Assembly (NCBI GenBank): GCA_913056525.1
Contig: CAJXLO010000011.1
Coordinates: 1 to 40,051 of the forward strand
Origin: an uncultured Psychroflexus sp.
GTDB lineage: Bacteria; Bacteroidota; Bacteroidia; Flavobacteriales; Flavobacteriaceae
Reading direction: 5' to 3'
Length of the DNA stretch: 40,051 nucleotides
This document shows positions 25,520 to 36,965 of this stretch, piece after piece. The first letter of the stretch is position 1. Each line of letters starts with the position of its first letter. A program made the translations under genes and the position numbers. The notes beneath the pieces are model-generated. The model was given only the letters and a program-made list of their open reading frames with translations, searched no databases and was not told where the DNA came from.

Positions 25520-26770
25520 TTAATATAACATTTTAACTGCTCTTTCGAGTGCTTTGATCATAATGTCTATTTCCTCTTTCGTATTATAGAACGAGAAAGA
25601 TGCTCTTACGGTTCCAGGTATCTTGTAGAACTTCATGATAGGCTGTGCACAATGGTGTCCGGTTCTCAGAGCAATTCCCATTTTATCAACTAGCGTCCCG
25701 ATATCGTAAGAATGCAGCCCTTCAAAATTAAAGGAGATAACAGCTGTCTTACGATTTACTTCCGGACCATATAGGATGATCTTATCAAATTCCTTCAGTC
25801 TTTCAGTTGCATAGCTTACCAGTTCATCCTCATGTTCTTTAATATTATCAAAACCTATTTTATGCAGATAATCCACTGCTGCGCCAAACCCGATACCTCC
25901 GGCGATATTGGGCGTTCCAGCCTCGAACTTATGCGGCAGACCTGCATAAGTTGTCTTCTCAAAACTTACGTCGGAAATCATTTCGCCACCTCCTTGATAA
26001 GGCGGAAGCTCTTCCAGAAGATGTTCTTTACCATATAATATTCCAACGCCGGTAGGTCCACACATCTTGTGGGCGGAAACCGTGTAGAAGTCTACATCTA
26101 GTTCTTGAACATCAGCTTGTATGTGAGGAGCGGCCTGTGCGCCATCTATCAGGACCTTAGCACCTACATCATGTGCTTTTTGTATGATCGTTTTTATGGG
26201 GTTTATACTTCCCAGAGCGTTTGATACATGGTTTACGAAAACCATCCTGGTCTTATCAGAAAGTAGTCCATCCAGCTCTTCTAATTTGAGCATCCCATCT
26301 TGATGCATGGGTAAAACCTTAAGGTTTGCACCGGTCTTTTCACACATCATTTGCCATGGAACGATATTTGAGTGATGTTCTAGAGCAGAAACGATGACTT
26401 CATCTCCTTTTTTCAGGAACTGACCGTAGCCGGAGGCAACAATATTAATGGCATGGGTTGTTCCGGCGGTGAACAATATCTCATGGGATCGTTTCGCATT
26501 AAAGTGATTTTGTATTTTAATACGTGACTGTTCATAAGCGTCGGTCGCTGTTTGTGATAAAGTGTGAACACCACGATGGATATTCGCATTATATCTACTG
26601 TAATAGTCACTGATACAATTGATCACCTGTTGTGGTGTTTGTGACGTGGCCGCATTATCAAAGTAGACTAACGGATATCCGTTGATTTCTTCCTTCAATA
26701 TTGGAAAATCATCTCTGATCTTATCCACATCAAAAACATCTAAAGTAGTTTCTGTTTTCATTCTATTCAT
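25520..26770 (-). CDS. sufS: SufS cysteine desulfurase
   Basis: Pyridoxal-phosphate enzyme that takes sulfur from cysteine and hands it to SufE. 416 residues, class II (SufS/CsdA) type. The PLP lysine is Lys235 in TVSAHKMCGPTGVG, and the active-site Cys is near 374 in RTGHHCAQPIM. The N-terminal YFDNAATSQTPQ is typical. The start is at 26770 (MNRMK); the second Met 9 bp downstream is an alternative. It lies 24 bp after sufD. Confidence 0.97.
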   Translation of the reverse strand: MNRMKTETTLDVFDVDKIRDDFPILKEEINGYPLVYFDNAATSQTPQQVINCISDYYSRYNANIHRGVHTLSQTATDAYEQSRIKIQNHFNAKRSHEILFTAGTTHAINIVASGYGQFLKKGDEVIVSALEHHSNIVPWQMMCEKTGANLKVLPMHQDGMLKLEELDGLLSDKTRMVFVNHVSNALGSINPIKTIIQKAHDVGAKVLIDGAQAAPHIQADVQELDVDFYTVSAHKMCGPTGVGILYGKEHLLEELPPYQGGGEMISDVSFEKTTYAGLPHKFEAGTPNIAGGIGFGAAVDYLHKIGFDNIKEHEDELVSYATERLKEFDKIILYGPEVNRKTAVISFNFEGLHSYDIGTLVDKMGIALRTGHHCAQPIMKFYKIPGTVRASFSFYNTKEEIDIMIKALERAVKMLY

Positions 26771-26794
26771 TTCATCATCCGATTCATCATCTCT

Positions 26795-28123
26795 TTACAA
26801 TTCAAATCCCAGGCTTACACCTATTTTATTGGCGATCTGTTTAGTGATCCTGCGTTTGAGTTCTGGAATGTTCACACTGTTCAGAACATTATTGGCAAAA
26901 GCATACATCAACAATGCTCTAGCCTCTTTCTCTGGTATTCCTCTGGAGCGCATATAGAAAAGGGCTTCCTCATCTAGTTCTCCAATGGTACAACCGTGAC
27001 TACAAGCCACGTCATCTGCGAATATCTCAAGTTGAGGTTTTGAATTTATTGTGGCCTTATCATCTATGAGAATATTGTTATTGCTTTGAAAGGCGTTGGT
27101 CTTTTGAGCAATCTTATCAACAAGGACTCTTCCATTGAAAACCCCAGTGGAGCGATCGGCGAAGATCCCCTTATAATCTTGATGACTTTCACAGTTTGGT
27201 TGTGTATGATGTACTAAGGTATTGTGGTCAACGTGTTGTTTATCCTCAATGATGGTCACACCTTTCATTGACGAATTAATATACTCACCATCCTGAAAAT
27301 AATGAAGATTGTTTCGTGTGAGCTTTCCGCCAAAAGAGAAAGTGTAGATCTCACAATCACTACTTTCAGCTTGTTTGACGTATGTACTATCTATCAGCGA
27401 AGCTTTCTGCTTGTCGTTCTGTATCTTGTAGTGATCGAGCTTAGCATTTTTCTCTAAGAAGATCTCTGTAACAGAATTGGTCAAAACTTCATTTTCTGTG
27501 AGGCTTTGATGTCTTTCTATTACTTCCACTTCTGCGCCTTCTTCCACGATTATCAGATTTCTGGGCTGAAGCATTAACTTTTCATCGCTACCCGTGGAAA
27601 AGTTGAGTATCTGAACCGGTTTTTCAGCTGCTACTTCTTTTGGCACTCTTATGTAAGCACCTTCTTTAGAGAAAGCCGTGTTTAGAGCGTCCATGCTCTC
27701 CTTAGGTGTTATCTGGTTAAAGTACTTGTCCACCAGCGGCTTGTACTTTGGTCGGTTCAGGAAAGATGACATTAAACAAGCATCGAACTTATCATGTGTC
27801 GTGGTAGATAGGTGAGAGGAATAGACACCGTCTATGAAAACGATCTGATAAGAATCAATATCATGGATACAATATTTCTTGATATCATTGTACTCCAGGG
27901 ATTTCTCTTCCTTTGGGAATAGATTGAAATCGGAGTTTAATACAGGTCTTAATGATGTGTATTTCCATTCCTCCAATTTCTTAGTGGGAAATCCTTTTTC
28001 TTCAAATATCTTTATGGCATCATCTCTCATTTGATGATGATCATTCTCCAGGTCCATTTGTTCCTCAAATGCAAAGAAGGAGGAAATGAGCTTTTCTTTT
28101 AGATCTTGATCTGTTTGGGCCAT
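26795..28123 (-). CDS. sufD: SufD scaffold subunit
   Basis: SufD joins SufB and SufC in the SufBC2D complex on which Fe-S clusters are built, and is tied to iron delivery. 442 residues with the SufB/SufD core beta-helix. Visible markers include YFQDGEYINSSMKG, the DKIAQKTNAFQSNNNILIDD stretch and the C-terminal ADDVACSHGCTIGELDEEAL followed by FYMRSRGIPEKEARALL. It lies 3 bp after sufC and 24 bp before sufS. Confidence 0.96.
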   Translation of the reverse strand: MAQTDQDLKEKLISSFFAFEEQMDLENDHHQMRDDAIKIFEEKGFPTKKLEEWKYTSLRPVLNSDFNLFPKEEKSLEYNDIKKYCIHDIDSYQIVFIDGVYSSHLSTTTHDKFDACLMSSFLNRPKYKPLVDKYFNQITPKESMDALNTAFSKEGAYIRVPKEVAAEKPVQILNFSTGSDEKLMLQPRNLIIVEEGAEVEVIERHQSLTENEVLTNSVTEIFLEKNAKLDHYKIQNDKQKASLIDSTYVKQAESSDCEIYTFSFGGKLTRNNLHYFQDGEYINSSMKGVTIIEDKQHVDHNTLVHHTQPNCESHQDYKGIFADRSTGVFNGRVLVDKIAQKTNAFQSNNNILIDDKATINSKPQLEIFADDVACSHGCTIGELDEEALFYMRSRGIPEKEARALLMYAFANNVLNSVNIPELKRRITKQIANKIGVSLGFEL

Positions 28124-28126
28124 CGT

Positions 28127-28882
28127 CTATGCGTTTACCGTTTCTGTCTTTAACCAATCGTAACCTTCTCTTTCGAGCTTAAGTGCTAGGTCTTTATCAC
28201 CTGACTTGACGATCTTACCATCCAGGAGCACATGAACTACATCAGGAACTATATAGTCTAATAATCGTTGATAGTGCGTTATTACCAGGGTAGCATTATC
28301 CTCAGTTCTTAATTTGTTCACACCGTTCGCTACCGTTTTAAGCGCATCAATGTCCAGACCGGAATCGGTTTCATCCAGGATGGCCAACTTAGGTTCAAGC
28401 ATAGCCATTTGGAATATCTCGTTGCGTTTTTTCTCACCACCTGAGAAGTTCTCGTTCAGCGATCGGGATAAGAACTTCCTGTCTATACCTAATAACTTGG
28501 ATTTTTCCCGCATCGTCTTAAGCATATCACTAGCGCTCATTTCTTCAAGCCCTCGCGATTTCCTTATTTGATTGATAGACGTCTTGATAAAATTCGTTAC
28601 TGATACACCCGGAATGGATACTGGATATTGAAAGGAAAGGAAGATTCCTTTATGGGCACGTTCGTCCGGCGATAACTCTGAAATGTTCGCTTTATCAAAG
28701 ATGATATCACCTTCTTGTACTTCGTAATCCTCATTACCGGCTATAACAGAAGCCAATGTGCTCTTGCCTGAACCATTAGGTCCCATTATTGCATGAACTT
28801 CTCCGGGTTTGATCGATAGGTTTATTCCCTTTAATATTTCTTCGCCTTCTACAGTGGCATGTAAGTTCTTTATTTGTAACAT
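28127..28882 (-). CDS. sufC: SufC Fe-S assembly ATPase
   Basis: ABC-type ATPase of the SufBC2D scaffold complex; it is cytosolic and not a transporter subunit. 251 residues. Walker A is GPNGSGKST at residues 34-42, the ABC signature is [12 protein letters not shown], and Walker B is [16 protein letters not shown], in which the ETDSGLD form is characteristic of SufC. The switch His is in [13 protein letters not shown]. It lies 7 bp after the small lipoprotein gene and 3 bp before sufD. Confidence 0.97.
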
Positions 28883-28889
28883 CTATTTT

Positions 28890-29306
28890 TTAATTATTAG
28901 TTGAAATTTTGATCTTTTTATCTTCAATTTTCTTTTCAGGACCTTTGACATCGATGATCTCTTTCACTCTGATGATCTCTTCCCATTCATCTTCTTTATC
29001 GTTTTGGATGATCTCACCTCTTATACTAACGGGTATCATATCAAAAGCTTCATTTTGAAGTGCTTTGGACCTTTTGTTCAGTTCTTGACCCATAGAATCC
29101 AGGATTACACCGTATATCTTAGACCTGCTTTTTATAACGGCTGCTGTATCAACGGTAATGAACTCACCTCTAACTAATTTTGTACTTTCAGTTTTTTCTA
29201 ATCGGCTTTTGATTTCTTTTTGCCCTTCTTTGTCATTGTTTTTCTTATCCTGACCGCAGGACAAAAAGAAAAAGCTTATAAGTATGAAACAGATCGTATT
29301 TTTCAT
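28890..29306 (-). CDS. Small lipoprotein of unknown function between sufB and sufC
   Basis: 138 residues. A lipobox gives lipidated Cys17 (FFFLSC), followed by a Lys/Glu/Asp-rich linker. The remainder (about residues 44-125) has strands typical of a small beta protein: LVRGEFITVDTAAV, SKIYGVILDSMGQ, and VSIRGEIIQ then EEIIRVKEIIDV. This order faintly resembles the OB-fold domain of NlpE-type envelope lipoproteins, but I cannot confirm a family. It lies 9 bp after sufB and 7 bp before sufC, so it must be co-transcribed with them. It probably faces the periplasm, while the SUF machine is in the cytosol. Confidence 0.8.
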   Translation of the reverse strand: MKNTICFILISFFFLSCGQDKKNNDKEGQKEIKSRLEKTESTKLVRGEFITVDTAAVIKSRSKIYGVILDSMGQELNKRSKALQNEAFDMIPVSIRGEIIQNDKEDEWEEIIRVKEIIDVKGPEKKIEDKKIKISTNN

Positions 29307-29315
29307 TATGTTGAT

Positions 29316-30764
29316 TTATCCAACAGAACCTTCCAGTGATATTTCGAGTAGTTTCTGCGCTTCCACGGCAAATTCCATTGGGAGTTTGTTAAGTACTTCT
29401 TTACTAAAGCCGTTCACGATCAGCGCAATAGCCTTTTCCTCATCAATTCCTCGCTGATTACAATAAAAGATCTGGTCCTCACCAATCTTACTGGTCGTCG
29501 CTTCGTGCTCTATCTGTGCACTATTACTACTGGCTTCTATGTAAGGAAAAGTGTGAGCACCACATTTATTACCCATTAATAGGGAATCACATTGGGAAAA
29601 GTTACGGGCGTTCTTAGCTCTACTGTTCGCTTTTACCAAGCCACGGTAACTGTTCTGTGACCTTCCGGCCGATATTCCTTTAGAAATGATGGTACTTTTA
29701 GTGTCATTCCCTAAATGGATCATCTTCGTTCCGGTATCTGCTTGTTGATAATTATTGGTCAAGGCTATTGAGTAGAATTCCCCTATGGAATTATCGCCTT
29801 TAAGCACGCAGCTGGGATATTTCCAGGTTACGGCACTTCCGGTCTCTACCTGTGTCCAGGATATCTTAGCGTTCTTTTCACAAAGTCCGCGCTTAGTGAC
29901 AAAGTTGAAAACGCCACCTTTACCTTCCTTATCGCCTGGAAACCAATTCTGCACTGTGGAATATTTGATTTCTGCATTGTCAAGGGCTACAAGTTCTACT
30001 ACGGCGGCATGTAGTTGGTTTTCATCACGCATTGGCGCCGTACAACCTTCCAGATAACTGACATAGCTTGAATCTTCGGCTATGACCAGCGTTCTTTCAA
30101 ATTGACCTGTTCCACTCTCATTTATCCTAAAATAGGTAGATAGTTCCATCGGACATTTTACACCTTTGGGTATGTAACAGAAGGAACCATCACTAAAAAC
30201 AGCTGAGTTCAATGCAGCAAAGAAATTATCGTTCTTTGGGACCACGGAACCCATGTATTTTTTTACTAGCTCAGGATATTCCTGTATGGCTTCTGAAATG
30301 GAGCAAAAGATGATGCCTTTCTCGGCCAGGTTCTTCTTAAAGGTCGTAGCGACAGAAGTAGAATCCATCACTACGTCAACGGCCACACCAGCCAATTTCT
30401 TTTGTTCTTCCAGGGATATCCCTAATTTATTAAAAGTGTCTAACAGTTCTGGGTCTACTTCATCAATACTATCGTATTTGGGTTTACTACTATTTGGCGA
30501 AGAGTAATAGGAAATATTCTGATAGTCCGGTTTTTCATAGTTAACATTGGACCAGTCCGGTTCTTGCATCTTCTCCCAACCTCTATAGGCTTCTAACCGC
30601 CATTCCGTCATCCATTCAGGTTCGTTTTTCTTTTTGGATATCGCTCTTACGATATCCTCGTTCAAACCTTTGGGCAATTTATCGGATTCAATGTCCGTGT
30701 AAAACCCATATTCATATTCCTTATGTTCCAGTTCTTTTTCTAGTTCTTGTTCAGTATAAGCCAT
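29316..30764 (-). CDS. sufB: SufB scaffold subunit
   Basis: SufB is the core scaffold on which the nascent cluster forms, in complex with SufC and SufD. 482 residues, normal for the family. Visible markers are [55 protein letters not shown], and the C-terminal region with [20 protein letters not shown] and [19 protein letters not shown] 68-bp spacer separates it from sufA upstream; I see no terminator or full promoter match in the spacer. Confidence 0.97.
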
Positions 30765-30832
30765 AATTTTTAAATATTAATGATATCAACCTTTCTTTGT
30801 GATTAGAAAAAGATCGGTCAATAACTATAATT

Positions 30833-31162
30833 CTACAATGAAAAACTTTCTCCACATCCGCAGGTTCTTTCTGCGTTAGGATTGTTGAAAACAAACCCTT
30901 TACCGTTCAGACCGCCTGAAAATTCAAGGGTCGTACCTACTAGATAAAGGAAGCTCTGTTTGTTCACAGCGATCCTCACCCCATTATCTTCAAATATCTT
31001 ATCATTATCCTGTTCCTCCTGGTCAAAATTAAGTTCATAGGATAAACCGGAACAGCCACCGCTCTTCACGCCCACACGAACGAAATGCTCATCTAGATTA
31101 AAGCCTTCCTCGTCCATTAGCGTTCTTATTTTGTTCTTTGCGTGTTCACTAACTTTTATCAT
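30833..31162 (-). CDS. sufA: SufA/IscA-type Fe-S carrier protein
   Basis: A-type carrier that accepts clusters from the scaffold and passes them to target enzymes. I start at the ATG at 31160-31162 (109 residues, MIKVSEHAKNKI). The frame is open for 12 more codons, but those codons lack family similarity and come close to the putative promoter. The three cluster-binding cysteines are Cys37 (GGCSGLSYEL), Cys101 and Cys103 (TCGCGESF). First gene of the SUF operon. No Rrf2/IscR-type regulator gene is next to it. Confidence 0.94.
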   Translation of the reverse strand: MIKVSEHAKNKIRTLMDEEGFNLDEHFVRVGVKSGGCSGLSYELNFDQEEQDNDKIFEDNGVRIAVNKQSFLYLVGTTLEFSGGLNGKGFVFNNPNAERTCGCGESFSL

Positions 31163-31187: not shown

Positions 31188-31195
31188 CAAATATA
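31188..31195 (-). promoter_or_regulatory. Putative -7 box of the SUF operon
   Basis: TATATTTG on the - strand, a full match to TAnnTTTG, 25 bp before the sufA ATG. The upstream TTG is about 32 bp away instead of 17-23, so this may be a regulated promoter. I see no clear palindromic IscR-like site. Confidence 0.5.
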
Positions 31196-31261: not shown

Positions 31262-32314
31262 TTAAAATTCTGAGAAACGTTCATCTAATGTAAGGTCAAC
31301 ATCTGAAAGGGTTTTCAGGAAAGCGATGATCTTTTCTTTTTCTTCTTCTGTAAGGGGAATGCCAGGTACATTATTCTCATTATACATTTCCTGACTGATG
31401 TTGGGGGTTTCTTCTACTCCGGAATCATAAAAGTCGAGCACTTCTTCTAAGGTGTCGAACCTACCATCGTGCATGTAAGGTAAAGTGAACTCTATGTTTC
31501 GCAAGCTAGGCACTTGAAAAGTATAATCATCATCAGGGTTGCCAGTGACTCTTCCACGACCTTTATCATCATATTGCGGGTTTATCGGTAATCCATTGTT
31601 CATGTACTGTTGATTCGTAAATAGTTCACCGCTATGACATGAACTACATTTACTATCAAAAAGCGCTTTTCCGGCCTGTTCTTCAGCCGTAAACTCCGCT
31701 GTACCCTGATGGACCACGCGATCGTATTTGGTCTCCGCCGATACCATCATCACGAGGAACTGCGCCAGTGCATCAAATAAGTTCTTTGTATCGATCTGGC
31801 CATCCTCAAAGGCCGCATTGAACATTTCCTGATAGCTGGGATCATCTTTTAATTTCTCCAGTACATTCCCTATTTCTTCGTTCATCTCTACTTCTGTCGT
31901 GATGGGGATGATGAAATGTGCATCCAGATGGGCGGCCGCACCATCCCAGTTAAAGCTTTTTTTGTAGGCCAGATTGTGCAAAGGTTGTGCGTTCCTTGTA
32001 CCTAAAGCTCCACCTACACCATGGCTTACCCGATGTGTGTGATGGGTGAATGCAAATTCTTGCATGTGGCAAAAACCGCAAGAGATCACGCCGCTGGAAG
32101 AAAGCTTTCCATCATAAAATAATTTTTTCCCCAGCTCAAAGCCTTTTTCCGTGGGCGGATTTTCATTTATATCATAGGTCAACTCTGGGAAATAAGCCGG
32201 CTGAGGTACTTCAAGCTCTTTGTTCTCGTCCAGGTCTTCTACTACTGCATATTCATCTCCACTGCAAGAGATCAGGGTCATCAATATCGCTATGTAAGAC
32301 CAATACCTGAGCAT
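31262..32314 (-). CDS. MbnH/MauG-type dihaem cytochrome c peroxidase-like lipoprotein
   Basis: 350 residues, lipoprotein signal with Cys17 (LISCSGD). Two c-type haem motifs are present: CGFCH (Cys79, Cys82, His83) and CSSCH (Cys223, Cys226, His227). Other family markers are RVSHGVGGALGTRNAQPLHN and LPYMHDGRFDTLEEVLDFYD. The family includes bacterial cytochrome c peroxidases, MauG and MbnH. Its direct neighbour is MbnP-like and the two genes share one base (TAATG), which favours an MbnH-like role, that is, oxidation of a tryptophan in MbnP with peroxide, over simple peroxide removal. Last gene of its operon. Confidence 0.9.
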   Translation of the reverse strand: MLRYWSYIAILMTLISCSGDEYAVVEDLDENKELEVPQPAYFPELTYDINENPPTEKGFELGKKLFYDGKLSSSGVISCGFCHMQEFAFTHHTHRVSHGVGGALGTRNAQPLHNLAYKKSFNWDGAAAHLDAHFIIPITTEVEMNEEIGNVLEKLKDDPSYQEMFNAAFEDGQIDTKNLFDALAQFLVMMVSAETKYDRVVHQGTAEFTAEEQAGKALFDSKCSSCHSGELFTNQQYMNNGLPINPQYDDKGRGRVTGNPDDDYTFQVPSLRNIEFTLPYMHDGRFDTLEEVLDFYDSGVEETPNISQEMYNENNVPGIPLTEEEKEKIIAFLKTLSDVDLTLDERFSEF

Positions 32315-33087
32315 TATTCTGATGCTTGGACGATAGCGTCCACCTGAAATGAATTTTTCATGTTTTCTGCTATTTTGGGTGCGTTCACCGGATCGACCTG
32401 AATGTCATCCTTCTCGGCGATCTCAAAGGCATGTACCGCATTGAATATTTTTAATACGTCCATATCTAGACGGATGCTTTGTCCATCTTGATCAAGACGA
32501 AGTGTTTCTCCCAGATCAAGCTCAACTACCTTGTAATTGTCCAAATTTTCGCCGTGGCTTCCTACATGATAGAGGAATTTTTGTTCAACCTCAGCGATGC
32601 TGTTACCATATTCTCCTTCTAACTTAAGGAACTTGTAACCGGCAGACCATGACCAGAGCATGCCGTTCTCTTCCGCCGTAGGCACAAAGTTGTCTACACC
32701 GTTCAGCGGATAATTGGACTGGTCTATACCAAAGCCGAATCGTATTTTATCATAGTTATCCGCAGGTATATCTTCCAGATCGATACTTAAACTGGATGGA
32801 TCTTTCTCGTTGATCACAAAATAACTTTCCTCCACTGGATATTTGAAGGTGTCACCATTCGTTAATTGCAGCTCTATATTACTGATGATGTACTTTAATG
32901 TATCAATACGAAAGTGTTCACCAGCGTTCTTTTCGTAGATCTGACCGCTCAATTCCAGGTCCTCGCCACCTACGTGATGGTCAAAGGTCAAATTGAGCTC
33001 TGTTGTCAGTTCTTGCTGCACATCATCATCTGAACAGGACAGCAGCAAAAGTATCGGTAGTAAAAAAAATACTTCTTTGTTTCTCAT
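32314..33087 (-). CDS. MbnP-family copper-binding lipoprotein
   Basis: 257 residues, lipoprotein with Cys18 (LLLLSCSDD). Family features are a strand pattern starting LNLTFDHHVGGEDLEL, YIISNIELQLTNGDTFKYP, the DNYDKIRFGFGIDQ motif and a Trp pair in MLWSWSAGYKFLKLEGEYG (about residues 142-160). MbnP of methanotrophs binds copper through a site that includes a kynurenine made from Trp by MbnH. His and Trp residues suited to such a site are present, but I cannot say which are used. It lies 1 bp after the propeller lipoprotein and overlaps the mbnH-like gene by one base. Confidence 0.85.
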   Translation of the reverse strand: MRNKEVFFLLPILLLLSCSDDDVQQELTTELNLTFDHHVGGEDLELSGQIYEKNAGEHFRIDTLKYIISNIELQLTNGDTFKYPVEESYFVINEKDPSSLSIDLEDIPADNYDKIRFGFGIDQSNYPLNGVDNFVPTAEENGMLWSWSAGYKFLKLEGEYGNSIAEVEQKFLYHVGSHGENLDNYKVVELDLGETLRLDQDGQSIRLDMDVLKIFNAVHAFEIAEKDDIQVDPVNAPKIAENMKNSFQVDAIVQASE

Positions 33088-33088
33088 A

Positions 33089-34474
33089 TCAATCGATCTT
33101 ATAAATTATAGCATCTTTATCTCCCTTATTGTTAAATCCCATATCCTGACTTTCGGAACTGCCGATGCCGATCAGTTGAGCTTCATCACTATCTAATACA
33201 ACATCGTTTGCCAGGTCCAATTGGCTTCCGCCGAAGGATAAACTGTTGTTTACGTTTCCATCTTTATCGATAATAAGAAGCCACGCGTCATTTTGACCTG
33301 CATTTTCCCTTAGGTCGATATCATTGCTTTGCGAGTTACCGGCTATGACATAAGTAGAAGCATCTAATCGCTTGATAGCTCTCGCGGAATCAAAGTTAGA
33401 TCCGCCATAGGTCTTCTCCCAATCCAAGTTGCCCTGCGGCCCGAGATGAACCAACCAGGCGTCAGCGTTCCCTAATGGTTGGGATACATCACCATTAGCA
33501 CTTCTTGTATCACCGATGATAAAATAACCGGAGTTGTTGCTTTTGCATAGATCATAAGCAAATTCCACGCTACTGCCACCCAGGTTTTTCTGCCATTCCA
33601 GCTCGCCGTCAGGTTTGAGTTTTACCGCCCAAAAGTCGTAGCTACCATTGGGTTGTGTGATATCAAAATCATCGCTTTCAGAATGACCGCTCATCAGGAA
33701 ACCTCCGTCATCGGTTTGTATAACAGCGTAACTGCGATCGTTGTTGGAGCCTCCAAAATACCTGCGCCATTCCACATCTCCAGAAGCAGCTAATTTGATA
33801 CCCCAGAACTCACCAACGCCATGTTTAGGCATATCATAACGCTTACCAGACCTACCGGCAGTGTCGTTTCCCTGACCACCGCTTGCGGTAACATCCAGGA
33901 AGCCGCTCAGAAAATAACCACCGTCATCTGTGTTGGTAATGCCGAAGCCTCGATCGTTCCCGGAAAAACCGATGTTCTTTTCTTTAAGGATATCGCCATT
34001 TGCACTAAGTTCTATAAACCAGAAATCGTGAAAGCCTTCGTTTCCATTTACATCACCATCGTCACTTCTTGAAAATCCTATGGCTGCCAGTCTGCCATCC
34101 GCTGTTTCAACGATCTGCTGACCGCGGTCGTCATCGCTTCCACCCAATGTCCGTGACCATATCAATTCCAGATCATCATTAAACTTGACGACCCAAAAGT
34201 CTGCATCCGTTGTCATTTTATCCGTGATATCTCCGTCTGTACTTTTAGTAAAACCTATGGCCACGAAGTTCCCGTCATCTGTTCTTGTCATCGATAAAAG
34301 GTCGTCTTCATTACTTCCACCCAGGTTCTTTAGGGTATTTAGTTCACCGTTCAAGTTCTCCAGGTTAACAGGAGCATCATTATTGTCCGCTTCAGCATTA
34401 GCATTATCATCACTATCTGAACAGCTCAGGTTCAAAAGGATTATAAAAACCAGTAGATATGTTCTTTGTATCAT
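33089..34474 (-). CDS. Seven-repeat beta-propeller lipoprotein
   Basis: 461 residues; lipobox Cys18 (LLNLSCSDSD), then an acidic/Asn-rich linker. From about residue 50 seven repeats of roughly 55-60 residues follow, each beginning near GGSxxD, with a TxDGGFxxxGxSxSxDGD core and ending DFWxVKLxxDGxLxWxKxL. Seven such units fit a seven-bladed propeller. The third unit has an insert of about 12 residues (RSGKRYDMPKHG). Asp-rich turns may bind calcium. No enzyme signature is seen. The gene overlaps the upstream gene by 4 bp (ATGA) and precedes mbnP by 1 bp. The role is unknown; it may be a binding or docking protein on the outer membrane. Confidence 0.85.
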   Translation of the reverse strand: MIQRTYLLVFIILLNLSCSDSDDNANAEADNNDAPVNLENLNGELNTLKNLGGSNEDDLLSMTRTDDGNFVAIGFTKSTDGDITDKMTTDADFWVVKFNDDLELIWSRTLGGSDDDRGQQIVETADGRLAAIGFSRSDDGDVNGNEGFHDFWFIELSANGDILKEKNIGFSGNDRGFGITNTDDGGYFLSGFLDVTASGGQGNDTAGRSGKRYDMPKHGVGEFWGIKLAASGDVEWRRYFGGSNNDRSYAVIQTDDGGFLMSGHSESDDFDITQPNGSYDFWAVKLKPDGELEWQKNLGGSSVEFAYDLCKSNNSGYFIIGDTRSANGDVSQPLGNADAWLVHLGPQGNLDWEKTYGGSNFDSARAIKRLDASTYVIAGNSQSNDIDLRENAGQNDAWLLIIDKDGNVNNSLSFGGSQLDLANDVVLDSDEAQLIGIGSSESQDMGFNNKGDKDAIIYKID

Positions 34475-35898
34475 TGAACGATCAATTTATGTTTACTGTT
34501 CTCATTGATCTGCATGATATAAACACCTTTAGACAGATCACTGATGTTTAGGTTTACAAAATCATCCTCTAAATTATCGTATGATCGAACCAACCGCCCG
34601 TTCATTGCAAATATTTTAACATTCCTTAGCTGATGATCAGTGGTTTGTATCTTCACCTCTTTTGTCGCAGGATTAGGATAGACCTTAAGCTCTTCATGAT
34701 CAAGTTCTGCAATGCCCAGGCTATTTTCTTTAACTAAGTAGAATCCGGTGTTGATATCGCTGATGATGATATTGCCGCTATCAAAATAAGGATAAACGCT
34801 CCATGCGCCATCAAAACCCGCATCATTTGAAACCGGGAAAGTATCAAAACTACCGATCTCCGTGATGTTTTGATTGTCAATATCGCTGATGTCTATCACC
34901 CGTAAACCGGCGGTATAATTGGCCTGATAAAACCTATCATCTTTTACATATCCATTGTGGTCGATCGCATTTTTCATTCCGGTATAATTAAAATGTAAAC
35001 CAGGATTATCCAGATCGGTCATGTCGATAACGATTGTCTTTGCCTGAAAACCAAAATTGAGTTCGTCTAATTCATCACCTAATAAAAAGTACTTATGATC
35101 TTCTGTTAACCAGCCTTGATGGGTATAACCTACGTTAGTATAGCTAAAACTACTTATCAATTGCGGATTTGCCGGATCGCTTACATCTACTATTGCCACT
35201 TCATCTTCATTAGAACCTATAAAAATTTCACTTCCTTGATAATCAAAATCTGGACCGGAATAAGTAACAACTTGTGCATCGTGACTATACGAACTTCCGC
35301 TGTAACCGCCTAAACCTATTGGATTTAAAGGATCGGAAATATCTATAAAATGCGCTCCTCCTAAAAAAGTCTGCGTTCCAACTGCATAAGCTACTGGTTC
35401 ATTTGGATTGATCACTAAATTATGAGCATTGCCAAAACCATCATAATGCGCATCTTCCGTAAATGTCTGCGGTGTCGAACCAGGATTTCTTAACCTTGTA
35501 AGATCAAAAACTTGCATACCGTGTCCGGAAGCCTCGCTGACGATAAATGCATAGTTTTCAAAGACCTTAATATCTCTCCAGGAGCTCGATGTGGTATGAG
35601 AAGGTAGCTTTCCCAGATAAACAGGATTTGCCGGATCGCTTATATCGATAAAGGCCGTTCCGTTGTTCAACCCCATTAAAGCATATTCATCACCATTCTG
35701 AGGATCGGTCCAGCCCCAGCTGTCATTGCCTGCACTAGCGTTCAAAGTGTTAAGGTCGATATGCGCCATCAGGTCATAACCCTCACAATCATATACACCG
35801 GCCGAACCGTTCGTACATGGTGTTTGTCCGAAAACCACAAAAGGAATGATAATAAAAATGCCGAGGTTGATTTTCTTGATATGCTGATATTTAAACAT
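34471..35898 (-). CDS. Choice-of-anchor B protein with T9SS type A sorting domain
   Basis: 475 residues. A signal peptide ends near VVFGQ, then a choice-of-anchor B domain with repeats of the form NGTAFIDISDPANPVYLGKL and VAIVDVSDPANPQLISSF, alternating with SHDAQV- and HNGYVKDD-type His motifs. The repeat layout suggests a propeller. A C-terminal type IX secretion sorting domain covers about residues 405-475: KVYPNPATKEVKI, then GRLVRSYDN, SKGVYIMQI, and KLIVQ at the end. It should therefore cross the outer membrane and be surface-attached or released. First gene of the four-gene operon; it overlaps the next gene by 4 bp. The divergent thiL starts only 20 bp away. Confidence 0.9.
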   Translation of the reverse strand: MFKYQHIKKINLGIFIIIPFVVFGQTPCTNGSAGVYDCEGYDLMAHIDLNTLNASAGNDSWGWTDPQNGDEYALMGLNNGTAFIDISDPANPVYLGKLPSHTTSSSWRDIKVFENYAFIVSEASGHGMQVFDLTRLRNPGSTPQTFTEDAHYDGFGNAHNLVINPNEPVAYAVGTQTFLGGAHFIDISDPLNPIGLGGYSGSSYSHDAQVVTYSGPDFDYQGSEIFIGSNEDEVAIVDVSDPANPQLISSFSYTNVGYTHQGWLTEDHKYFLLGDELDELNFGFQAKTIVIDMTDLDNPGLHFNYTGMKNAIDHNGYVKDDRFYQANYTAGLRVIDISDIDNQNITEIGSFDTFPVSNDAGFDGAWSVYPYFDSGNIIISDINTGFYLVKENSLGIAELDHEELKVYPNPATKEVKIQTTDHQLRNVKIFAMNGRLVRSYDNLEDDFVNLNISDLSKGVYIMQINENSKHKLIVQ

Positions 35899-35918: not shown

Positions 35919-36965
35919 ATGGCTAAAGATACAAAAAACACCAAGACCCCAATTTCCGAACTCGGTGAATTCGGCCTGATCGATCACTTGACCAAAGAAT
36001 TTCGTATCGCCAGATCATCTACCGTAAAAGCTGTTGGCGACGATGCGGCGGTCTTGCATCCTAAGCAGCATCAGGTCATTACGACAGACATCTTGATAGA
36101 AGGTGTTCATTTTGACCTGGCTTACACGCCTCTTCAGCATTTGGGCTACAAATCGGTAGTGGTCAACTTATCTGATGTTCATGCGATGAACGCTGTTGCA
36201 AAACAGATCACCGTTTCCATTGCTTGTTCAAATCGATTTACCGTGGAAGCCCTGGAAGAGATATACAAAGGCATTCATAAAGCCTGTAAGGTCTATAACG
36301 TTGACCTGATAGGTGGAGACACTACTTCATCTACTCGAGGACTGGTGATCAGTGTTACGGCGATCGGTGAATCAGAAGAAGAAAACATTACCTACAGAAG
36401 TGGGGCAGAACCGAATGACCTTTTAGTTGTAAGCGGCGACCTGGGAGGAGCTTTTCTGGGCCTGAAGGTTCTGGAACGTGAAAATGAGGTTTTTAAGGTC
36501 AATCCGCGTTCGCAACCTGATCTGTCAGAATATACTTACCTTATCGAACGTCAACTCAAACCCGAAGCGCGAAAAGATGTTCAGGAACTGCTCAAAAAAT
36601 TGGAAGTATTACCTAAGGCGATGATCGATATTAGTGATGGACTATCCTCAGAATTAATGCACCTCTGTAAACAATCCAGGGTCGGAGCAAATCTTTTTGA
36701 AGAGAAACTACCCTTAGACCCGAAAGTGACCAGTACCTGCGAAGAGTTCGAGCTGGATAGTACGACCGTTGTCCTGAACGGTGGAGAGGATTATGAACTA
36801 TTGTTTGCTTTAGATCAAAAAGACTATGATAAGATAAAAGGGAATCCACATTTAACCGTAATCGGTCATTTCACGGAAGCAAATGAAGGAATACATTTAA
36901 TAACACGCGCTAACACGAAGATACCAATGAAAGCCCGTGGATGGCAAGCTATGGAAGAAGAGTAG
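35919..36965 (+). CDS. thiL: Thiamine-monophosphate kinase
   Basis: Phosphorylates thiamine monophosphate to the active cofactor thiamine diphosphate. 348 residues. Motifs of the ThiL/PurM-like fold: SELGEFGLIDHLT at the start, VGDDAAVL near residues 40-47, TTDILIEGVHFDL, the GGDTTSS loop and VLNGGEDYELLFAL near residue 290. The ATG at 35919 sits 12 bp after the putative -7 box. It ends 1 bp before the end of the convergent histidine kinase gene. No other thi gene is in the window. Confidence 0.95.
   Translation: MAKDTKNTKTPISELGEFGLIDHLTKEFRIARSSTVKAVGDDAAVLHPKQHQVITTDILIEGVHFDLAYTPLQHLGYKSVVVNLSDVHAMNAVAKQITVSIACSNRFTVEALEEIYKGIHKACKVYNVDLIGGDTTSSTRGLVISVTAIGESEEENITYRSGAEPNDLLVVSGDLGGAFLGLKVLERENEVFKVNPRSQPDLSEYTYLIERQLKPEARKDVQELLKKLEVLPKAMIDISDGLSSELMHLCKQSRVGANLFEEKLPLDPKVTSTCEEFELDSTTVVLNGGEDYELLFALDQKDYDKIKGNPHLTVIGHFTEANEGIHLITRANTKIPMKARGWQAMEEE
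35924..35952 (-). promoter_or_regulatory. Putative promoter of the choice-of-anchor B/MbnP/MbnH operon
   Basis: On the - strand: TTG (35950-35952), 18 bp spacer, TATCTTTA (35924-35931), which fits TAnnTTTG except for the last base. It lies inside the first codons of thiL. The predicted start is about 35915, which gives a leader of roughly 15 bases. Confidence 0.42.

Follow-up and report, generated by a model that had tools for sequence, protein, structure and literature searches.

A conserved four-gene locus of Flavobacteriaceae joins an MbnP-MbnH pair to two propeller proteins and may form a surface metal-handling unit

What could an MbnP-MbnH pair do in a bacterium of the Flavobacteriaceae when it is encoded together with two propeller proteins? 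The question is raised by a locus of an uncultured Psychroflexus sp., contained in a stretch of 40,051 nucleotides (assembly GCA_913056525.1, contig CAJXLO010000011.1) that is referred to here as the window. The four genes of this locus encode a choice-of-anchor B protein with a type 9 secretion system (T9SS) sorting domain (B), a propeller lipoprotein (W), MbnP and the dihaem enzyme MbnH. A first-pass annotation of the window took them to be a stand-alone capture system for copper or another metal, in which the surface proteins dock a modified MbnP. This interpretation as a whole is partly supported by our analysis. We propose that the genes form a metal-handling unit of the outer surface that is conserved in Flavobacteriaceae and most likely serves copper, with W as the partner of MbnP, a reading on which our own judgement is evenly divided. 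Beyond that annotation, the locus has a fixed address beside the SUF genes, the pair is optional within it, and there are two types of MbnP, with the Trp that is the expected site of modification missing from some proteins of one type. The MbnP-MbnH pair itself is already known, and one study describes it as conserved far beyond the methanobactin producers that were analysed (PMC3621798). The open-licence literature yielded no report of a four-gene surface unit at a SUF address or of two W states and nothing on choice-of-anchor B proteins; judging by their titles, none of the papers listed for LVIVD deals with this unit, and those for MbnP with Flavobacteri- were unrelated.

The four genes stand as first described. 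The coordinates of their open reading frames (ORFs) give a 4-bp overlap between B and W, a 1-bp gap between W and MbnP and a 1-bp overlap between MbnP and MbnH. B matches TIGR04312 (E 3.8e-170, 566 bits, cut-off 100 among the NCBIfam profiles) and Por_Secre_tail (E 4.3e-16), i.e., it carries a T9SS type A tail, which we count as a mark of surface anchoring. Pfam and NCBIfam scans of W gave no match. Its AlphaFold model (predicted local distance difference test, pLDDT, 85.2) has strands for seven blades, as the seven repeats had suggested, and its closest solved protein is CylK (7fh6, Foldseek template modelling (TM) score 0.77; profile match E 2e-32). W is homologous to the CylK propeller. MbnP matches Pfam PF20243 (E 2.8e-44, 151.7 bits, cut-off 27). 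MbnH has two haem motifs and matches CCP_MauG PF03150 (E 2.8e-49); its best NCBIfam match is the equivalog TIGR04039 (E 1.5e-67), at 228 bits below the cut-off of 362.85. These matches bear out the identities first given to the genes. Export of all four products was also claimed, and it holds as a prediction from sequence, which we called from the starts of W, MbnP and MbnH, each hydrophobic and with a Cys at position 17 or 18, and from the T9SS tail in B. The genome of the window (1.97 Mb, 80% complete) contains a single match each to MbnP, choice-of-anchor B and CCP_MauG. In agreement with the annotation, which saw no methanobactin gene, the MbnB family PF05114 has no match in this roughly 80% complete genome; a control search matches 2 of 14 genomes.

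The order of the genes is widely conserved, and it is therefore not a peculiarity of one genome, which would have counted against the annotation's reading. PF20243 has matches in 71 of 149 genomes sampled across the Flavobacteriaceae, at 79 places, 78 of which (the window's included) were read in gene context, the 79th being a fragment that was added later. The order B-W-MbnP-MbnH, here called the cassette, occurs at 47 of these 78 loci, in genomes of different genera; one of the 47 (L054) is counted with its B cut by a contig end. The remaining 31 loci have MbnP-MbnH without W or B in the stretches read, one of which (L077) is cut by a contig end and has its W on a separate contig. MbnH adjoins MbnP at 78 of 78 loci. 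Gaps inside the unit have a median of about 10 bp or less, and a few gaps or overlaps are large, perhaps in part because ORF starts were called too early. A search with W as the query led to 80 named loci, kept from at least 512 confirmed relatives among at least 589 stretches. Among the matches listed, these loci belong to Flavobacteriaceae or to loosely named Bacteroidota (e.g., Psychroflexus, Mesonia, Aquimarina, Kordia, Aequorivita, Dokdonia, Muricauda) and comprise 61 with B-W-MbnP-MbnH, 17 with W and no pair, one cut after W and one without a detected MbnP. None of the 17 named pair-less genomes has any MbnP match in the same search that matches 71 of the 149 family genomes. In a larger sample PF20243 was found in 179 of 397 genomes and W (E <= 1e-110) in 194 of 397. 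MbnP-MbnH is an optional module of a wider B-W locus.

A link between W and the pair is suggested by the residues of W. We compared the columns of 144 W sequences, 103 with an adjacent MbnP-MbnH pair and 41 without it. In window numbering, R324 is present in 103/103 of the former and 0/41 of the latter, and D322 in 100/103 and 0/41. The pair-less sequences have His at 149, 173 and 175 (all three in 41/41), a combination that is never seen in W with an adjacent pair; His at 149 by itself is also present in 17 of those 103, the window's included. Tyr at 177 (40/41 pair-less, 20/103 with the pair) is the only other column that is fixed differently at the thresholds used. According to the strands of the model, H149 opens strand A of a blade, residues 173-175 are in the loop ahead of strand C and D322/R324 end a strand D. 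All of these positions are on the DA/BC-loop face of the predicted structure, and this face is usually the binding face of propellers. In ten W-like paralogues, neither Arg at 324 nor any His of the 149/173/175 trio is seen; two of the ten have a gap in at least one of the columns.

The same states were found in fresh loci. Twenty W loci were picked by the presence and position of an MbnP match, with their letters unseen and their bit scores seen; two of them (L310 and L313) repeat L217 and L210 and are not counted as new. All 18 new loci fit, six having an adjacent pair and R324 without the full His trio and 12 having no pair, three His and no R324. D322 is looser here (4/6 with the pair; the others are Glu and Asn). 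For three of the 12 pair-less loci (G587, G626 and G750), and likewise for G075, there is an MbnP elsewhere in the genome. Because W has the pair-less state in these genomes with an MbnP at another place, it follows the adjacent pair and not any MbnP. A working link between W and MbnP-MbnH is thus indirectly supported by R324 and D322 where the pair is adjacent, with a single split on the tree behind it.

MbnP is the protein for which a chemistry can be proposed. With its AlphaFold model (pLDDT 87.6), Foldseek found at E <= 0.001 only 7L6G (six chains; E 3.6e-8, TM about 0.5), the MbnP of Methylosinus trichosporium. The segment MLWSWSAGYKF aligns with MAWNWQAGRRF of 7L6G and H174 aligns with its HVGS, so that the Trp pointed out earlier in MLWSWSAG falls on the WxW of the solved protein; the profile match (E 0.097) is weak alone and the fold match is firm. 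The first Trp of the MbnP WxW is reportedly converted to kynurenine. We compared 133 MbnP sequences, leaving out those shorter than 200 residues (180 in a quick tree). The cassette proteins are of two types. In type I (n = 41, including the window's) M143, W145, W147, H174 and H178 are invariant (41/41). Type II (n = 62) has extra residues past the motif, with H152, H174, W221 and M231 invariant and Trp at 39 in 56/62. In pairs without W, W145 is present in 30 of the 30 MbnP compared. By analogy, kynurenine-dependent Cu(I) binding by the window's MbnP is likely, its chemistry being carried over from the literature on methanotroph MbnP, CorA and MbnP/MbnH. A four-Cys motif, taken from the depositors' name of the 7L6G chain, is absent, 40 of 41 cassette type I proteins having no Cys past residue 35. 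Lipoboxes were recognised in 92/103 MbnP, 117/144 W and 72/103 MbnH, and two successive acidic residues follow the lipid Cys in 80/92, 85/117 and 34/72 of them, respectively. Such paired acidic residues resemble surface-export signals of Flavobacteria.

MbnH keeps both CxxCH motifs, W123 and Y296 in 103/103 cassettes. Y296 aligns with a Tyr of the di-heme enzyme 6e1c, its best solved relative, which we take to be an MbnH, and with a Met of the peroxidase 4aao. The position is presumably a haem ligand site, as in MauG, which has Tyr at the place of the peroxidase Met. At this place the 31 non-cassette MbnH have Phe in five cases and Leu in two.

The cassette has a fixed address. In the family sample, sufA is downstream on the same strand in 47/47 cassettes, with gaps of up to 584 bp (99 bp in the window), and a thiL-like gene is present at 45 of these 47 loci, mostly divergent and upstream. 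Among the 31 MbnP loci without the cassette, sufA follows MbnH only in L077. Pair-less B-W loci share the SUF/thiL address, with the exception of L188, where the SUF genes are upstream; three more (L272, L288 and L309) have no sufA match in the stretch read. MbnH and sufA are 1.2 to 6.8 kb apart in nine named loci (L144, L147, L154, L156, L159, L166, L168, L181 and L199), and 14 named loci with the pair have no SUF genes in the stretch read, some being cut by contig ends. In L097, sufA and the thiL-like gene are divergent and 235 bp apart without B-W, and MbnP-MbnH is found about 5.4 kb further. The pattern TAnnTTTG, which we take to be the Bacteroidota -7 promoter box, occurs within 100 nt upstream of sufA at 116 of 121 loci (10.9 expected from shuffles) and within 100 nt before the first B at 36 of 139 (12.0 expected). 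Inside the unit it is not above expectation, with 2/144 before W, 2/103 before MbnP and 3/103 before MbnH (10.6, 3.3 and 3.9 expected). A strict two-box promoter pattern is found in 7/80 and 7/34 cases before sufA and in 2/143 before the first B. Since the box of sufA is kept and boxes inside the unit do not exceed expectation, the four genes appear to be one unit and SUF another. Co-transcription of the two, which we considered, is weakened by the box that sufA has of its own; read-through from the four-gene unit into SUF is possible. The address may result from joint regulation under metal stress or may simply be an inherited order.

These results can be arranged into the following model. 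W, MbnP and MbnH would be lipoproteins that face outward, and MbnH would oxidise W145 of MbnP to kynurenine. The kynurenine, H174 and a further ligand, for which H178 and M143 are the invariant candidates, would then form a Cu(I) site at the outer surface of the cell. W may bind the modified MbnP, or may hand over to it, through its DA/BC-loop face with D322/R324, and B would be a surface-displayed partner. In pair-less relatives, H149, H173 and H175 of W (with H218) on the same face may bind metal directly. A more tentative extension, which we find doubtful, is that W exists in two interchangeable versions, one with a three- or four-His metal cluster of its own and one with none and with a partner that carries an oxidised-Trp site. 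An encoded and a post-translational site would then have replaced each other at the fixed SUF locus.

Several observations weigh against a copper unit in which W is the partner of MbnP. The window's MbnP scores 39.5 bits against the equivalog TIGR04052, below the cut-off of 140, and its sole Cys is C18. Position 145 of type II MbnP is Trp in 57/62 and Phe in 5/62. The acidic signal after the lipid Cys is weak in MbnH. Among the neighbours at the locus are the thiL-like and SUF genes and no copper genes. The window's B, unlike its sufA, has no exact TAnnTTTG in the 200 nt upstream, and 103 of 139 first B genes lack it in 100 nt; the unit's own promoter is therefore not located. B-W without an adjacent MbnP-MbnH is found in 23 of the 71 family genomes with a full-length W, which contradicts a strict need of W for an adjacent pair. 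In G079, MbnP-MbnH is on one contig and a W fragment that has R324 and Ser at 322 is on another, immediately ahead of sufA. Read strictly, this breaks the adjacency rule; the case is weak because the bin has a completeness of 81% and a contamination of 4%. Lastly, pair-less W form one clade (SH-like approximate likelihood ratio test 99) and the W states change once on the tree. As far as sampled, the residues thus changed, and MbnP-MbnH was gained or lost, a single time, which leaves one independent pair for comparison, and the number of loci is not a number of evolutionary events.

This single split also speaks for the first rival explanation, in which an ordinary copper pair, MbnP-MbnH, stands beside unrelated propeller genes by inherited synteny and the W residues are lineage markers. 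The best rooted W tree nests the pair-less W inside, i.e., loss of the pair is derived, and an approximately unbiased (AU) test of the alternative gives p 0.25; the polarity of the W states is therefore open. B is common elsewhere. It has matches in 146 of 395 phylum genomes (120 over the cut-off), 10 of the 146 being in Flavobacteriaceae, and none of 17 B loci outside the family (L249-L265, 11 to 19.5 kb read) has a match to W, MbnP or MbnH, which speaks against a four-gene unit around the B genes of other families. Set against inherited synteny are the lack of promoter boxes above expectation inside the unit, the order that is kept in 47/149 genomes of different genera, and the nature of the fixed W columns, a His trio, a Tyr and an Asp/Arg pair, which looks unlike random drift. 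On balance we find this explanation rather unlikely. In the B tree the groups are more intermixed than in the W tree (13 changes over four groups), and three B columns follow the pair, weakly. A swap of MbnP-MbnH lineages inside the cassette was suggested by quick trees, and in AU tests on subsets the simpler topologies, with a single clade of type II W (p 0.212), of cassette MbnP (p 0.498) or of cassette MbnH (p 0.362), are not rejected.

The address beside SUF allows a second rival, namely a unit for another metal or ligand, e.g., iron or haem, that acts in step with SUF and in which the oxidised residue serves that site. All 47 cassettes precede sufA, and type II MbnP has a different invariant set. 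Yet the promoter box of sufA makes co-transcription unneeded and the window's MbnP is type I with a canonical WxW. To our knowledge, the kynurenine sites known so far bind copper. We consider another metal or ligand unlikely. A third possibility, that MbnH is a surface peroxidase for H2O2 with MbnP as a structural partner, is suggested by the superfamily that MbnH shares with bacterial cytochrome c peroxidases and is very improbable given the Tyr at the peroxidase Met position in every cassette, as in MauG/MbnH, and the MbnP that adjoins MbnH at every locus.

How does the locus compare with known systems? The methanotroph pair of M. trichosporium (7L6G) is similar in its adjacent MbnP and dihaem MbnH, the WxW Trp, the MbnP fold and export. 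The window's pair differs in its lipoprotein-like starts, the missing four-Cys motif, scores below the NCBIfam equivalog cut-offs, a genome (80% complete) without an MbnB-family match, and its place with two propellers beside SUF. We know of no propellers with CorA-CorB or MopE-SACCP. For CorA/CorB, one paper describes a copper site that contains kynurenine and a dihaem partner that is co-transcribed, and CorA-CorB and MopE-SACCP resemble the window's pair in combining a surface copper protein that has kynurenine with a dihaem partner (PMC3912023). No CorA or MopE structure was among the PDB sequence matches of the window's MbnP or among its fold matches at E <= 0.001. MauG is a dihaem enzyme of the same superfamily as MbnH; it makes tryptophan tryptophylquinone in methylamine dehydrogenase, and no such partner is seen at the window's locus. 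CylK, the closest relative of W in solved fold and in sequence, has chains of about 650-690 residues (633-686 in the chains compared) with a further domain, whereas W, at 461 aa, consists of the propeller alone and has no room for one. The CylK segment G-H-T-F, which would include H391 under the numbering of that chain, aligns at the repeat position of W D322, in another blade. Pairs of Flavobacteriaceae without B-W belong to the same families, with WxW in 30/30 compared, and differ in their neighbours, no B or W being found in the 31 stretches read.

We know of no partner that receives or uses modified MbnP, and the locus names two candidates, B and W, which are conserved with the pair in 47/149 genomes. 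In W, D322/R324 versus H149/H173/H175 are candidate functional residues. Loci of this kind that have the pair, set beside those that lack it, provide a natural comparison set, and the Trp-lacking type II MbnP bears on whether kynurenine is always needed. The features of the window are collected in Table 1. The names of the SUF cluster rest on a Pfam run for sufA and the small lipoprotein gene; the rest is our reading, with the order taken from relatives.

Table 1. Positions in the window of the four genes, their residues of interest and the neighbouring genes.
Feature	Position	Strand	Basis
B, 475-aa choice-of-anchor B protein (LVIVD-type propeller) that carries a T9SS type A sorting domain	34471..35898	-	TIGR04312 and Por_Secre_tail; opens the unit
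W, seven-blade CylK-like propeller lipoprotein, 461 aa	33089..34474	-	AlphaFold, Foldseek, profile match
MbnP lipoprotein (PF20243), type I, 257 aa	32314..33087	-	Pfam, AlphaFold fold match
MbnH lipoprotein (MauG/MbnH-like dihaem enzyme), 350 aa	31262..32314	-	Pfam, NCBIfam, PDB sequence matches
W H149 codon	34028..34030	-	His in 41/41 W without the pair
W N173-D174-R175	33950..33958	-	His at 173 and 175 in 41/41 pair-less W, 0/103 with the pair
W H218, invariant	33821..33823	-	His in 144/144 W
W D322-T-R324, tied to adjacent MbnP-MbnH	33503..33511	-	Column comparison; codons checked
MbnP WxW motif W145-S146-W147; W145 predicted kynurenine precursor	32647..32655	-	Alignment to 7L6G WNW
MbnP H174, invariant, candidate copper ligand	32566..32568	-	His in 133/133
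MbnH first haem motif CxxCH, residues 79-83 (C79-H83)	32066..32080	-	Sequence
MbnH W123, between the haem motifs	31946..31948	-	Trp in 103/103 cassettes
MbnH second haem motif CxxCH, residues 223-227 (C223-H227)	31634..31648	-	Sequence
MbnH Y296, at the Met place of bacterial cytochrome c peroxidases	31427..31429	-	Alignment with 6e1c, 4aao
TATATTTG, putative -7 promoter box (Bacteroidota type) for sufA, located between the MbnH gene and sufA	31188..31195	-	TAnnTTTG match
sufA, sufB, small lipoprotein gene, sufC, sufD, sufS, conserved downstream neighbour	25520..31162	-	sufA downstream in 47/47 cassette loci
thiL-like gene, conserved divergent upstream neighbour	35919..36965	+	AIRS domains (Pfam); in 45/47 cassette loci

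The samples behind these comparisons were trimmed as follows. L152, L205, L213, L175 and L182 were dropped from the W, MbnP and promoter comparisons as duplicates of included genomes. L145 (contig end after W), L201 (MbnP undetected), L206 (W as two ORFs) and L291 and L292 (partial) were dropped as well; the first W tree included L145, L201 and L206. The near-identical rows L143/L144 and L214/L217 were kept. In the B tree, L255 was left out by the program and long B ORFs were cut to 480 residues.

Some further observations concern the genes of the unit and their neighbours. Of the 47 cassette loci, 34 have a single B and the other 13 have two to five. Five tandem choice-of-anchor B genes precede W in L042 and L150, and the upstream B copy is longer in several loci (about 640 aa, e.g., L037 and L039). 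The type II MbnP of L043, L055, L073, L074 and L075 have Phe at the kynurenine-precursor position, with MbnH kept. Among pairs without B-W, seven loci (L032, L035, L036 and L104-L107) have a weak TonB-receptor plug match (seen with a representative) and a weak YtkA-like match beside the pair, both below the cut-off; their MbnH have Phe or Leu at the place of Y296, and the haem ligand may therefore differ. Small proteins that BLAST links into one cluster are encoded upstream of the pair at 27 of the MbnP loci that lack B-W, and the representative of this cluster (L107) has no Pfam match. In L070, L087, L090, L092, L095, L097 and L099, MbnP-MbnH without B-W is followed by related proteins; that of L070 has 346 aa, a CDLCGC stretch and no Pfam match. 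Within the SUF cluster, a small lipoprotein-like gene lies between sufB and sufC (28890-29306 in the window). It has no Pfam match, and many pair-less loci have no matching ORF. There are 87 matching ORFs, with many cassette loci among them, and in L180, L186, L194 and L216 a longer lipoprotein-like protein takes its place.

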